64,000 nucleotides of DNA from the NCBI GenBank assembly GCA_030168575.1, contig CP115555.1:434001-498000 (forward strand), written 5' to 3'. Below are positions 8,278 through 58,190 of the stretch, piece by piece. The DNA is from Methanomassiliicoccales archaeon LGM-RCC1. Its GTDB lineage: Archaea; Thermoplasmatota; Thermoplasmata; Methanomassiliicoccales; Methanomethylophilaceae. Under the pieces are notes generated by a model. That model was not told the DNA's origin and did not search any database. It was given only the letters and a program-made list of their open reading frames with translations. Every line of letters begins with the position of its first letter. Positions within the stretch are counted from its first letter, which is position 1. Position numbers and translations under genes: made by a program.

Positions 8278-10152
8278 GTGTTCATTATGACCGACGATGG
8301 ATATCTAAGTCCGTATGCGAAGAATGAGGCCGACGCCAATAGACACATGTGCCTGGTCCTGCTCCTGGCCGCGGCCCTGGCGATCCTGGTGTGGATGGCC
8401 TACATCCCAAACGTGTTCAAGGTCGGAGAGTTCACATACAATTTGACGATAACGATCCTTCCAATCGTGGTCGTGTTGCTGCTCACCCCCATGCTGTTCT
8501 ACAAGAGCAAGCATCTCTACAATCCCCTGTTCAAGTACTATGTGCTGTTCCTGTTCATCCTGACCATATCGATCCTGAACATCATAATGCCGAAGCATGG
8601 TATACTTGGGTGGGCCGTCTGTATCGCCCTTACAGGGCATTATTACAACCCCCGGGTCTGCATGATCGTCTTCGTGACCGTCATCACAGCGATGATATGC
8701 TGTCTGTATCTGGGAGTGTTCTATGGAGAATACGATTCCAACCTCCTTTCTGGTCAGGTCGATGTTCTCAGCGGTACCATCCACAACGAACTTCTGCCTG
8801 ACATCTATCCGGACACACCGGAGGGAAGGCAGCAATACCTGGATGCCCTGGCCTTAGCTGGAGAGAACAGATTCAACGTAATACTGACTGCGTATCTGGG
8901 AGGAAGGCTGCTGTTCATCATCCTGCTGTTCGCCGGAGTGATGTATCTCAACAAGAGGACGAAGACCCTCCTAGCGGATGAGGTCAACGCCAGCAACGAG
9001 GTTGAAAAGGGCAAGACCGAGCTGGAGGTCGCCAAGAAGATCCAGATGGAGACCTTGCCCAAGAAGAATCTGTCGATAAAAGGCATTGAGATCGTCGCAG
9101 AGCTGAAGGCTGCGAAAGAGGTCGGTGGAGACCTCTACGATTATCTGGAGATCGACAAGGACCATTTCGCATTCCTTATCGGAGATGTTTCTGGCAAGGG
9201 AGTTCCGGCAGCCATGTTCATGATGAAGACCATCACCGCCTTCAGGGACTTCGCGAAAGTAGGGAAAACTCCTTCCCAGATCCTGAATGAGATAAACGAT
9301 TCCATCAAGAAGGGTAACTCCGCCAGCATGTTCGTGACCTGTTTCTTGGCCATTCTGGACAAGAGGAACGGAGATATAGTGTTCGCCAACGCGGGACACA
9401 ACCCGGTATTGATCGGTTCCAACGGGAACTACCGCTATCTGAAATGCAACCCCGGGATCATGCTGGGATGCTTCAATAAGACCTTCATCGTCGATGAGGA
9501 GGTCGTTCTGAATCCTGGGGAGAGCATGACCCTCTACACCGACGGTGTGACCGAGGCCAGGAATACCGATGGCGATTTCTACGGAGACGAGAAACTTCTG
9601 AACACGATGAACGGTCAGGTCCATGAGTCCGTCATCAAACTCCATGACGCGATAAAGCATGATCTGGCGGAATTCGTCGGGGATACGCCTCAGAGCGATG
9701 ATATCACCCTTCTCACCGTGAAGTATCACGCCAACAAGGACTATTTCGAGGAGAGGAGTTTCGATGCCAAGATCGATAACATCCCTGAGATGCTGGAATA
9801 CATCGAAGTCTTCGGTAACGAGCACGGATTCCCCGAGGATTTCAAGAAGCAGATGGTCATAGTCGGCGATGAGCTGTTGTCCAACATTATCAAGTACGGG
9901 TACGAGAACAATGGCGGCGAGATCCTGGTGCGTCTGTCCTTCGATGACGAGAGCAGAGGATTCGTCCTGACGATAATCGATCATGCTAAACCCTTCAATC
10001 AGCTAGAGGTCGAAAATCATGCATACGAAGAGGGAGAGACCGACCTGCGCGCAGGCGGACTCGGCCTTATCATCGTCAATAGCATCATGGAAGAAAGCTC
10101 ATACGAATACAGGGACGGAACCAACATCCTGACCCTCAAGAAGCATTTCTGA
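8278..10152 (+). CDS. Membrane SpoIIE-type phosphatase with C-terminal RsbW-like kinase domain
   Basis: A 624-residue protein. Residues 20-235 hold about six membrane helices, followed by a short coiled-coil linker (about 240-265). A SpoIIE/PP2C phosphatase domain follows with GGDLYDY, GDVSGKGVPAA, YTDGVTEA and the metal-binding SDDIT motif. The last 130 residues are a GHKL ATPase of the RsbW/SpoIIAB type (VGDELLSNIIKYGYEN, then GGLGLII). It thus joins the opposing phosphatase and kinase activities of a partner switch in one polypeptide, next to its probable substrate, the STAS protein. The start is GTG 8278 or ATG 8287. Confidence 0.88.
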   Translation: MFIMTDDGYLSPYAKNEADANRHMCLVLLLAAALAILVWMAYIPNVFKVGEFTYNLTITILPIVVVLLLTPMLFYKSKHLYNPLFKYYVLFLFILTISILNIIMPKHGILGWAVCIALTGHYYNPRVCMIVFVTVITAMICCLYLGVFYGEYDSNLLSGQVDVLSGTIHNELLPDIYPDTPEGRQQYLDALALAGENRFNVILTAYLGGRLLFIILLFAGVMYLNKRTKTLLADEVNASNEVEKGKTELEVAKKIQMETLPKKNLSIKGIEIVAELKAAKEVGGDLYDYLEIDKDHFAFLIGDVSGKGVPAAMFMMKTITAFRDFAKVGKTPSQILNEINDSIKKGNSASMFVTCFLAILDKRNGDIVFANAGHNPVLIGSNGNYRYLKCNPGIMLGCFNKTFIVDEEVVLNPGESMTLYTDGVTEARNTDGDFYGDEKLLNTMNGQVHESVIKLHDAIKHDLAEFVGDTPQSDDITLLTVKYHANKDYFEERSFDAKIDNIPEMLEYIEVFGNEHGFPEDFKKQMVIVGDELLSNIIKYGYENNGGEILVRLSFDDESRGFVLTIIDHAKPFNQLEVENHAYEEGETDLRAGGLGLIIVNSIMEESSYEYRDGTNILTLKKHF

Positions 10153-54675: not shown

Positions 54676-55983
54676 TCAGCATCCCAAAGAGGTGATCGGT
54701 ATCACGTAGACCCCGTCCTCGCGCCTGTACACGGCGCTCTCCATACCGCTCAGCACGCACAGGAACTCCGGAGGACGTCCGCTGCCGTCATTGGTTATCA
54801 TCTCTTTGATGTTGATCAATTCCTCGGCCGCGGCATCCGTTTGGTTGGCTCCCAGTTTGATCTCGAACGCCCCCCATCTCCTGTCGGGAAGCTCCACCAC
54901 GGCATCTATCTCGCGGCCCTTCGCATCACGGTAGTGGTGAAGGTGCCCCCTCATGGAATTCGCATAGATCTGCAGGTCGCGCTCGCACATGGCCTCGAAC
55001 ATGAATCCGAACAGGTTCAGATCGTCCACCAGCATATCCTTGCTCAGTTCCATGGCAGCTATGGACAGCGCGGGGTCCGTCAGATGCCTCTTCGGGCTCT
55101 TGCCGACACGGACCGAGGATCTCAGATTGGGATTGAAGGCCGGCTGGTCCTCTATCAGGTGCATCCTGTCAAGGACGGACATGTAGCTCTTGACGGTCTC
55201 GTCGGACATCACCTCGTCGTCGAACTCCTTCATATCACGGGATATGGTGGAATAATTGGCGAGGGTGCTCTCGTTGCGTGACAGCGAACGCATCAGCATC
55301 TTCATCTTGGAAGGCGATTTGCTGTCATCCACACGGGGAAGGTCCTTCTCGCAGATCTCGTTTGGATAACGGGAGACGGCCAACAGGCGGTGTTCGATGT
55401 CCAGACTGAGGTTCCCGGGCCATCCGCCGCCCATGACCAGATCGACTATGCGGTCCAGTTTCTGCTCCCTGCATACGGATGTGGGGACATCGCCGTCGAA
55501 AAGGTCCTTCAGTCTGACCTTGCCGTCGGACGCTCCGATCTCCAGAAGCGACATTGTACGCATGCGCACGGCTGCGATACGCCCTAGACCGCTGTGAAGA
55601 CTCCCCTTCCTGATCTGCTCCAAGGGATCGTCGCTTCTCCCCCTCTCAGGTGTCGATGATCCGCTGAGGATGTATTTCCCGGGACCGTTCTCGGAATCAA
55701 CTGCCCTCCTCACCGAATCCCATATCGCCGGGACGAGCTGCCATTCGTCGATCAGATGGGGCTTGTCCCCTTCAAGGGCCACCTTCGGATCCATGGAGGC
55801 TATCCTTAGGTTCCTGTAATTGCCATCGGTGTCGTCCAAGGCGAACATGCTGGCCGAATGGGTCCTGGATGTCCAGGTCTTGCCGCAGTACTTCGGCCCC
55901 TCTATCGATACCGCCCCGTAGGCCTGGATCAACTGCTCTATCTCTTTGTCCACTACCCTCGGGATGTATCCGTCCACCTTCAT
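54676..55983 (-). CDS. AAA_14/DUF4143-family ATPase
   Basis: A 435-residue protein with an N-terminal P-loop (SIEGPKYCGKTWTS, about residues 26-40), Walker B-like LIDEWQLVPAIW, the sensor LSGSSTPERG, a helical middle, and the C-terminal DUF4143 nuclease-like domain (GREIDAVVELPDRRWGAFEIKLG). The Glu and Lys of EIKLG sit where PD-(D/E)XK nucleases have catalytic residues. These ATPases are abundant in gut microbes and of unknown role. Three 23-bp repeats lie upstream of its start. It ends near the tail of the mcm operon region. Confidence 0.82.
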   Translation of the reverse strand: MKVDGYIPRVVDKEIEQLIQAYGAVSIEGPKYCGKTWTSRTHSASMFALDDTDGNYRNLRIASMDPKVALEGDKPHLIDEWQLVPAIWDSVRRAVDSENGPGKYILSGSSTPERGRSDDPLEQIRKGSLHSGLGRIAAVRMRTMSLLEIGASDGKVRLKDLFDGDVPTSVCREQKLDRIVDLVMGGGWPGNLSLDIEHRLLAVSRYPNEICEKDLPRVDDSKSPSKMKMLMRSLSRNESTLANYSTISRDMKEFDDEVMSDETVKSYMSVLDRMHLIEDQPAFNPNLRSSVRVGKSPKRHLTDPALSIAAMELSKDMLVDDLNLFGFMFEAMCERDLQIYANSMRGHLHHYRDAKGREIDAVVELPDRRWGAFEIKLGANQTDAAAEELINIKEMITNDGSGRPPEFLCVLSGMESAVYRREDGVYVIPITSLGC

Positions 55984-56040
55984 GCGATGCCTCTGACGTT
56001 AAGGTATGTGTTCAAAGTATTTAGTGAAATATCCCATGTG

Positions 56041-56109
56041 ACTTGGGAACTTTTTCCCGTATAACTTGGGAACTTTCACCGTTTTCACTTGGGAACTTTC
56101 ACCGAATCG
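56041..56109. repeat. Three tandem 23-bp iteron-like repeats
   Basis: The 13-bp core ACTTGGGAACTTT occurs three times without change, starting at 56041, 56064 and 56087, so the period is exactly 23 bp (about two helical turns). The flanking 10 bp differ. The array begins 58 bp upstream of the DUF4143 ATPase start and ends 22 bp from the converging end of the next gene, placing it where a repressor or activator array of that ATPase gene would lie. Confidence 0.75.
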
Positions 56110-56130: not shown

Positions 56131-56400
56131 TCATTCTGATTTGACGTTGATGTAATAGGTGTTCAGACCAAGCAGGTTGGAATGCGTCACACCCTCCGGG
56201 ACGGCCGTGCCCGATTGGGAATCGTCCCTCACGATGACGTTCAGACCGTCATCCTTCCTTACGACCACGTCCTCGTCGCTCAGCCATACTCCAGTGATGA
56301 AGGTGTTGATGAACGTCGACACTGTGGATGTGAGCGATACCAGGATCGTGATGGGAAGGTACGTGAGCAGGATGCGTCTGATAAGCAGGTTATGTTCCAT
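56131..56400 (-). CDS. Short membrane protein, unrecognised
   Basis: An 89-residue protein with one or two hydrophobic segments at residues 8-38 (RRILLTYLPITILVSLTSTV) and a polar remainder probably outside the cell. The first 40 residues faintly recall a MATE transporter N-terminus, but the rest does not, so this may be a remnant. Against that, a TTTATAT box about 30 bp upstream and a normal frame suggest an expressed small gene. Confidence 0.45.
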   Translation of the reverse strand: MEHNLLIRRILLTYLPITILVSLTSTVSTFINTFITGVWLSDEDVVVRKDDGLNVIVRDDSQSGTAVPEGVTHSNLLGLNTYYINVKSE

Positions 56401-56449: not shown

Positions 56450-56469
56450 GCATTCCAGATTAGGAATGC
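56450..56469. promoter_or_regulatory. 7-bp inverted repeat upstream of a TATA box
   Basis: GCATTCC-AGATTA-GGAATGC is a perfect 7-bp inverted repeat. It lies about 15 bp upstream of the TTTATAT box of the minus-strand gene starting at 56400, in the place expected for an activator or repressor site. Confidence 0.4.
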
Positions 56470-57038: not shown

Positions 57039-57554
57039 TCATCCCTTGGTTATCGCTTCGATGTACTCATTCTGGATGCGGACCACTTCCGCGGAATCCT
57101 TGGCTTTGGAATAATCCTCGAGCATCTCCCCGTTGAGCCTCATGAACTCTGGGGCCCAGTTGAACCTGCCCAAGAACTCAGCGGCCTGGTCCTTCTCCCC
57201 TAGGATGTACAATGCCGCCATGACGGCCTCGGCGCTGTTCAGCTCCATCGGCCTGCCCCAGTTGATGGGATTGGAAGCGAGCAGGTACGGCAATGCCCTC
57301 TCCTCTACGTTCTTCAGCCTGGGGAACTCGTCTATGTTGGTCCATGTGAGGTCCATGACCACCAGTCCCTTCCTGGCGTGGTGGATGTCCGCCGGGGACA
57401 TGGCTTTATCTGAAAAGGGGGACAGTACTATCGATCCCTTCGGGATGGCCCCCAAGGTCTTGGCCTCCTTTCCGAGGCCGAACTTCATCATCCGCTTCGC
57501 GGTGCACTTCTTCGGGTCGCACTGACATTTGTCGAAGATGATTACCGGTATCAT
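57039..57554 (-). CDS. tsr3: Tsr3-type rRNA aminocarboxypropyltransferase
   Basis: A 171-residue DUF367/Tsr3 protein, which transfers an aminocarboxypropyl group from SAM to small-subunit rRNA. Family hallmarks are DKCQCDPKKCTAKRM at the N-terminus, VVMDLTWTNI, LLASNPINWGRPMELNSAEAV and the FNWAPEFMRLN end. Length is normal. It overlaps the preceding LMW-phosphatase-like gene by 4 bp (ATGA). Confidence 0.9.
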   Translation of the reverse strand: MIPVIIFDKCQCDPKKCTAKRMMKFGLGKEAKTLGAIPKGSIVLSPFSDKAMSPADIHHARKGLVVMDLTWTNIDEFPRLKNVEERALPYLLASNPINWGRPMELNSAEAVMAALYILGEKDQAAEFLGRFNWAPEFMRLNGEMLEDYSKAKDSAEVVRIQNEYIEAITKG

Positions 57555-58030
57555 GCCGTGACCAGCGCAGACAGCTTATCGGGGTCGGCCAGGTTCTCCT
57601 TCACCCATTCCCTGACCTGATCGATGACCTTGACGTAATCGTCGAAGAGCTCGGCGTCGTCGGTGGCAGTGAAGTCCTCCCTGTTCATCATGGGGGCGAG
57701 GATCTGCTTGCCCTGCCAAGGGGATTTCTTGGAGAATTCGTCGAAGATCGGCTGCTCCAAATATACAACGAAATCATAGAAATCGTCCTTGGGAAGGAGC
57801 TCGGTGTTCTTCAGGTCCTTGGCGACCTGGCGCCTCATGTCCTCCCCGTTCTGATACATCACGGAGATCATGTCGCAGTCGATGATGTCATGCTCGAAAC
57901 CGGCGCTGTACACCTCGTACTTGTTCTCGTAGAACTGGTTGGCGAAGTACTCCGCCAGCTGTGAGGTGTAGTCGTTCTTCCTGTCGAGGAACAGGATGCG
58001 CAGCTTCTTCTCGGTCTTCTTTCCGAACAT
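57551..58030 (-). CDS. LMW phosphatase-like protein lacking catalytic Cys and Arg
   Basis: A 159-residue protein with the fold pattern of LMW tyrosine phosphatases and arsenate reductases: RILFLDRKNDYTSQLAEYF followed by YEVYSAGFE. The P-loop CX5R is destroyed: Asp16 stands at the Cys position and Thr22 at the Arg position. It cannot act as a thiol phosphatase and is probably a binding or adaptor protein. Co-translation with tsr3 hints at a link to ribosome biogenesis. A TTTATAT box lies about 30 bp before the ATG. Confidence 0.7.
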   Translation of the reverse strand: MFGKKTEKKLRILFLDRKNDYTSQLAEYFANQFYENKYEVYSAGFEHDIIDCDMISVMYQNGEDMRRQVAKDLKNTELLPKDDFYDFVVYLEQPIFDEFSKKSPWQGKQILAPMMNREDFTATDDAELFDDYVKVIDQVREWVKENLADPDKLSALVTA

Positions 58031-58128: not shown

Positions 58129-58190
58129 GGGAAAAATGTATTTTTCTCCATTTTTCCGCGCGTAAAAATGTATTTTTCTACATTTTTCCC
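58129..58190. repeat. Two tandem palindromic elements (AAAAATGTA ... TACATTTTT)
   Basis: A 26-bp unit occurs at 58132-58157 and 58164-58189, 32 bp apart, with a single mismatch. The second copy is a perfect palindrome (9-bp arms AAAAATGTA and TACATTTTT, 6-bp centre); the first has 7-bp arms. The pair is itself bounded by GGG and CCC. It lies between divergent genes starting at 58030 and 58329, so it resembles a double operator. Confidence 0.65.

Follow-up and report, generated by a model that had tools for sequence, protein, structure and literature searches.

The window, that is, the whole stretch of DNA analyzed here, spans 64,000 nucleotides of the genome of Methanomassiliicoccales archaeon LGM-RCC1. 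On its minus strand, at positions 54676–55983, it carries a gene of the DUF4143/PDC-S01 family that encodes a protein of 435 amino acids with an ATPase, a winged helix-turn-helix (HTH), and a nuclease-like domain. The start codon of this gene (ATG at 55983) is preceded, at a distance of 57 bp, by an operator-like array of direct repeats (56041–56104, in minus-strand orientation like the gene) that comprises 2.8 units of 23 bp with the gene-sense core AAAGTTCCCAAGT. Three copies of this core, all in the orientation of the gene, are found at 56041–56053 (the copy closest to the gene), 56064–56076, and 56087–56099; on the plus strand, they read ACTTGGGAACTTT, are exact, and follow each other in steps of exactly 23 bp. 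A putative TATA-like box (TAAATA; 56018–56023, minus strand) can be inferred from the sequence 40 nt upstream of the ATG, a position in rough agreement with that in archaeal homologs. Between the array and this promoter lies a degenerate inverted unit (GTGAAATATCCCATGT; 56024–56039, plus strand) with three mismatches, and inspection by eye revealed a similar inverted stretch at a homolog with 74% identity (L012/L092). Elsewhere in the window, an AT-rich segment (58129–58190) in which GGGAAAAATGTA...TTTTTCC blocks recur and come close to palindromes, located 5' of an ORF of 159 amino acids (57551–58030, minus strand), looks like a further operator, and a palindrome (GCATTCC-N6-GGAATGC; 56450–56469) is situated 5' of a small ORF (56131–56400, minus strand).

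The protein matches the PDC-S01/DUF4143 family profile over its whole length. Pfam matches were obtained to DUF4143 (108.5 bits; cut-off 28.1) and AAA_14 (31.4 bits; cut-off 27), and the PADLOC model PDC-S01, which represents a single-gene phage-defence candidate, matches residues 5–399 with an E value of 6.6e-59; sequence searches of the PDB and of NCBIfam with the protein yielded no matches. The AlphaFold2 model of the protein is confident (mean pLDDT 92.6), and its secondary structure places the winged HTH at about residues 224–301, with the presumed recognition helix at 261–273. This segment is preceded by a P-loop ATPase of the STAND type (about residues 1–218) and followed by the PD-(D/E)XK nuclease-like domain (about residues 304–435). 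An alignment of 58 homologs (A1) shows residues G29, K31, G34, K35, T36, E80, W81, and Q82 to be invariant and D79 to be almost so; both Walker motifs of the P-loop ATPase, A and B, are intact. The nearest solved folds for residues 1–312 are those of the archaeal STAND-type ATPases PAB2304 (2qen; Z 14.7, rmsd 4.5, 256 residues) and SSO1545 (2fna; Z 13.4, rmsd 4.4, 253 residues), at 14–19% identity and with an aligned range that stops short of the C-terminal nuclease-like domain. The Foldseek list also contains Cdc6/Orc1 and NLR proteins, a community of fold that shows no function. Since the C-terminal part was barely tested in the comparison of the whole model, we folded and searched it by itself. 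The separate model (pLDDT 91.6) resembles the PD-(D/E)XK nucleases Card1, Cdn1, Can2, McrC, and EndoMS (McrC: Z 9.4, rmsd 2.8 over 108 residues; Can2: Z 8.6, rmsd 3.8 over 129 residues), and its top Z score (10.0; rmsd 3.0, 91 residues) belongs to 2czr, a TBP-interacting protein. Residues D360, E364, and E374-x-K376 are invariant in the 58 rows of A1; by its modeled fold and its D...ExK motif, the domain falls into the PD-(D/E)XK superfamily as a putative nuclease.

The initial annotation had described three exact 13-bp repeats with a 23-bp period, a description that is confirmed by the exact copies, by TRF analysis, and by the count of the core in the genome. No tandem repeat of the window scores higher in TRF than the array (86), and the 13-mer occurs three times in the whole 1.66-Mb genome, each time within the array; a reversed control pattern of the 13-mer does not occur in the same genome. 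Dinucleotide shuffles of the window gave a chance expectation of 0.79 matches for the 13-mer, even when up to two mismatches were allowed. A search with a 16-bp version and up to three mismatches retrieved the three array copies, scattered single matches, and one degenerate inverted copy. The identity of the cores thus stands, but not their extent of 13 bp: the conserved unit is longer and reads approximately (CGGtG)AAAGTTCCCAAGT in gene sense (minus strand), and a CCG in the spacer is kept as well. When the exact double repeat was sought in 100 related genomes, it was present in the genome of the window alone, without a match in the other 99. The initial annotation had taken absence of the core near homologous genes as grounds for refutation, and this result seemed to be one; the upstream regions of nearly all homologs, however, possess arrays of their own that are spelled differently. 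Hence, the exact core is private to the window gene, and it is the 23-bp architecture that is found at most homologs.

For the comparison of upstream regions, a set of 380 loci gave 378 hits, 355 of them near full length and 350 of these with at least 150 bp of upstream sequence; dropping sequences with at least 90% identity left 284 non-redundant homologs, of which 246 score at least 350 bits with A1. An array was recorded when a tandem repeat inside 250 bp of the start codon reached a score of 12, and this threshold for the counts, as well as that of 9.5 used for registration, was set after the first data had been seen. By this measure, 203 of the 246 homolog genes, from both archaea and bacteria, carry an array before the start codon, with a period of 23 bp in 192 and of 24 bp in 11. 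Each of the other periods from 15 to 22 and from 25 to 45 bp was met in 0 to 4 of the 246, and a period of 46 bp, twice 23, in 136. Downstream control regions passed in 5 of 231 cases at 23 bp and in 1 of 231 at 24 bp, and upstream regions of neighboring ORFs in 1 of 224 (an earlier, smaller set). The remaining 43 homologs stayed under the threshold, perhaps in some cases on account of a wrongly assigned start codon or a decayed array. Among lower-scoring relatives, 6 of 20 with 150–350 bits pass at 23 bp and one at 24 bp, and 3 of 18 with less than 150 bits pass; counted below 250 bits, 6 of 28 non-redundant members reach the threshold at period 23. The arrays contain between one and nine recognized cores, most commonly three (86 of 214). 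At L127, L147, L151, and L162, two repeat spellings alternate upstream of the gene, with a best period of 46 or 48 bp, a pattern that would suit the use of two sites or of a heteromer.

We also fetched six named records, picked from the records with a homolog among plasmids (245) and phages (6) and covering Bacteroidota, Actinomycetota, Bacillota, and Chlorobiota; their proteins are 38% to 25% identical to that of the window, and one of the six is an unverified phage record. In all six, including the Lentilactobacillus hilgardii homolog with 25% identity, the best period is 23 bp, and the array on the Bacteroides ovatus plasmid consists of perfect copies. The architecture of the array is a trait of the family across archaea and bacteria, and its spelling is private to each gene. 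Brought into a common register, 214 arrays yield the consensus AAAATCACGGAATAAAATTGCGA (positions 0–22), whose A-rich flanks are conserved and whose middle is variable. The spelling of the repeat varies among homologs and stays constant inside each array, and related proteins have related cores. The copies of an array change jointly: GTTCCCAAG in the window corresponds to GTTTCCGAA at the homolog with 74% identity, in all copies.

Residues by which the protein contacts its own array, should it bind there, are expected to change along with the repeat. Among 385 variable columns of the protein, residue 262 showed the best correlation with core similarity across the 214 arrays after correction for overall protein identity (0.250; second-best column 0.142); it was also the top column for repeat positions 6, 7, 8, and 9, each taken alone, and the ten best windows of 15 residues all lie inside residues 233–269. 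Residue 262 had already been at the top in the first 104 arrays (0.31, with 0.23 for the next), a set largely contained in the 214 and hence no independent replication. The spacer between the cores gave no comparable peak in the correlation with protein columns. Permutation of the arrays within clades failed to reach 0.25 in any column in 200 trials at each of three clade cut-offs, the largest value being 0.165. In a tree-aware analysis of co-change, based on a tree that was built with the HTH left out, columns 261, 260, and 262 rank first, second, and fourth among the columns tested for core positions 6–9, and the pairing of residue 260 with base 9 has a z of 4.9, the highest of the top pairs listed across the 23 repeat positions. 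Of 103 arrays whose protein has aspartate or glutamate at residue 262, 82 have G at position 9, compared with 29 of the 111 arrays with any other residue at this site. Two results count against this picture: in the tree test, residue 262 drops to rank 142 for base 7 and to rank 65 for base 8, and the top pairs in an MI-APC analysis consist of other columns together with repeat positions 0 and 20. Outside the core, A-rich positions correlate with many protein columns, probably through phylogeny. As far as sequence comparison can tell, the co-variation of recognition helix and repeat implies binding, and we consider recognition of the array by its own protein likely, with good confidence.

The homologs are distributed patchily, often with several copies per genome: they occur in 34 of 60 related genomes, in 39 of 299 genomes in the family of a Lachnospiraceae locus (E ≤ 1e-100), and in 53 of 396 and 25 of 296 genomes of two phyla inferred to be Actinomycetota and Spirochaetota (E ≤ 1e-30), and 15 full-length copies were counted in one archaeon from a termite gut. 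Homologs are present on 245 of 72,556 plasmid records and on 6 of 50,697 phage records (tblastn), where the family is rare; a scan of IMG/VR with A1 returned 20 pattern matches and no relatives. In each of three genomes tested, an array was found at its own gene only, so that each protein seems to have a single target, namely itself. A truncated paralog in the genome of the window (L182; 791478–791765, about 97 N-terminal residues) keeps a 23-bp array in a different spelling, that of AAAAATCATCAAT. We also considered whether distinct cores insulate paralogs from each other, an idea that is unsupported in G107, a genome with 15 full-length paralogs and 12 arrays in register. There, a core ATCA(T)CAA is common to three paralogs and a GTGATA core to two (by eye), and core likeness in pairs within and between genomes at equal identity amounted to 0.367 and 0.313, 0.301 and 0.350, and 0.465 and 0.370, respectively, so that the pairs from one genome were not the less similar ones throughout.

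The arrays tend toward a fixed relation to the promoters. The split between archaea and bacteria in the following counts relies on a hand-made list of loci, drawn up partly by kinship, and MAG contigs in it may be misbinned. Of 138 bacterial arrays, 86 are accompanied by a sigma70-like promoter that matches at 9 or more of 12 positions, and 69 of these 86 promoters have the -35 box at unit phase 17–19. As the -35 and -10 boxes are typically 23 bp apart from start to start, both fall into spacers with one core between them. The scan is slightly biased toward a 17-bp spacing and the unit itself resembles TTGnnA; the -10 box was therefore scored separately and was found at phase 17–18 in 40 of 91 cases, where about 8 are expected for a uniform distribution. 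A TATA-like box was recognized at 52 of the 76 archaeal arrays; it begins at the end of the array, with a median offset of 0.5 bp, and is situated about 32 nt upstream of the start codon. By position and phase, the candidate binding sites are located at the gene's own promoter. A protein residing on the last core should hinder the access of RNA polymerase or of TBP/TFB, for which reason repression is preferred to activation as the more probable outcome.

The initial annotation had compared the layout of the repeats to a cooperative operator array that may belong to the ATPase, and the comparison with the homologs supports this proposal. We regard it as probable that the array is the operator of its own gene, to which the DUF4143 protein would bind cooperatively via its winged HTH, most likely with autorepression as the outcome. 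The bases of the core would be read by residues 260–262, at the N-terminal end of the recognition helix, and several subunits would bind next to each other in steps of 23 bp, probably by way of the ATPase module. The bound protein would block the promoter, by occupying the spacer between -35 and -10 in bacteria and the TATA/BRE side in archaea, and the gene would most likely be autorepressed. Release may take place upon titration of the protein, upon a change in its nucleotide state, or upon its diversion by a trigger, e.g., foreign DNA. When a single mechanism has to be named, autorepression is the one toward which we lean.

The bound protein might instead activate its own promoter from the same self-operator, as in a positive feedback loop or switch. 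Such a role would fit the position of the array 5' of the archaeal TATA box, since sites just upstream of TATA/BRE can activate in archaea, as well as the 52 of 138 bacterial loci that stay under 9 of 12 promoter matches and the weak -35 box of some array-bearing bacterial promoters. However, the last core in bacteria is preferentially placed between the -35 and -10 boxes, a site that the protein could scarcely share with RNA polymerase, and several of the promoters have TTGACA with a 17-bp spacing and would not need an activator. Positive feedback is, in our estimation, a serious but rather improbable alternative. We see a still smaller chance that the array serves as a parking place on which the ATPase-nuclease subunits assemble in register and are kept inactive. 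An invader that degrades, remodels, or outcompetes the array DNA would then free the assembly and derepress the gene, whereupon the nuclease domain would fire; the private spelling of each array would amount to an own "password" for each protein.

That another regulator, either a host factor or the product of a neighboring gene, binds the array in place of the ATPase would accord with the DUF4143 locus on a Collinsella plasmid, which is adjoined by an HTH gene. The repeat, however, diversifies along with the recognition helix of the DUF4143 protein itself, and the array accompanies the gene across phyla and domains, which leaves such a regulator quite unlikely. The resemblance of the repeats to iterons, also raised in the initial annotation, would imply that the ATPase initiates replication in the manner of Orc/Rep proteins, with the array as the origin. 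Direct repeats do adjoin the gene of a winged-helix ATPase, the structural matches include Cdc6/Orc1, and homologs reside on the plasmid records counted above. Against this speak the location of the window copy within a single 1.66-Mb contig, the frequent presence of several homologs per genome, the phasing of the array to the promoter boxes in bacterial homologs, and the invariance of the C-terminal nuclease motif in A1. The iteron option is therefore regarded as very improbable; an iteron origin on a plasmid-type replicon beside a recognized rep gene was looked for and rejected, given the chromosomal contig, Pfam matches that include no Rep family, and the multicopy occurrence. Chance, or a neutral tandem duplication retained through common descent, has a negligible probability: slippage does give rise to tandem repeats, but the 23-bp period is constant while the sequence changes completely among homologs, the co-variation with the HTH exceeds that in clade-restricted permutations, and the period statistics refute this explanation.

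Distant DUF4143 genes (100–150 bits with A1, or missed by it) are mostly without a 23-bp array. This also holds, in the sequence examined, for the gene at 9854–11074 of L387 (Thermus thermophilus HB27 pTT27), which we take to be TT_P0211; a short palindrome (TGAATGA-N3-TCATTCA) is located immediately 5' of its start. RNA of TT_P0211 was reported to increase 6.6-fold in the presence of a plasmid, solely when TtAgo was present (PMC4406477), a response that we note as a lead only. Other elements precede the start codons of several distant DUF4143 genes that share one genome, among them a perfect 28-bp palindrome at L008, direct repeats of 33 bp at L006 and 39 bp at L007, and an inverted pair at L009; these repeats and palindromes were recognized partly by eye and carry no statistic.

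Autoregulation through operator repeats is of a known kind. The controllers of toxin-antitoxin and restriction-modification systems have autoregulated operators that are bound by a DNA-binding protein, at repeats in their own promoters, as proposed here, and keep a potentially harmful activity low. In PDC-S01, by contrast, the putative binder, the ATPase, and the nuclease-like domain are one protein, and the site is an array of fixed period whose spelling varies among homologs. Plasmid iterons, direct repeats of about 20 bp bound by an autoregulating winged-helix Rep protein, likewise lie beside the gene of their binder; unlike them, the arrays of PDC-S01 are chromosomal, phased to promoters, and associated with multicopy paralogs, with no sign of an origin.

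A study of archaeal defence counted PDC-S01 9,986 times in archaea and 29,494 times in bacteria, ranked it as the fourth most common defence system or candidate in prokaryotes, and described the validation of most PDCs as pending (PMC12988326); as an anti-phage defence system, it has the status of a candidate. The fusion of an ATPase with a PD-(D/E)XK domain in these DUF4143/COG1373 proteins of PADLOC has been published already, and no description of a cis element was found in that paper, whose main text contains none of the terms promoter, operator, or autoregul- (PMC12988326). No report of 23-bp arrays was found in the searchable literature, whose scope included few subscription papers and no preprints. 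What we have not seen described is a fixed 23-bp lattice that is common to the members of one family in archaea and in bacteria and whose spelling diverges together with the recognition helix.

For the PDC-S01 family, these data provide a concrete starting point at the molecular level, in that each member is assigned a predicted DNA target, together with a candidate reading helix and the geometry of the promoter. The question of what PDC-S01 binds is thereby reduced to a simple gel shift. Moreover, hundreds of natural pairs of recognition helix and operator that share a common geometry in archaea and bacteria would constitute a resource for deciphering the HTH-DNA code, and matched pairs of this type may prove useful toward orthogonal regulators.
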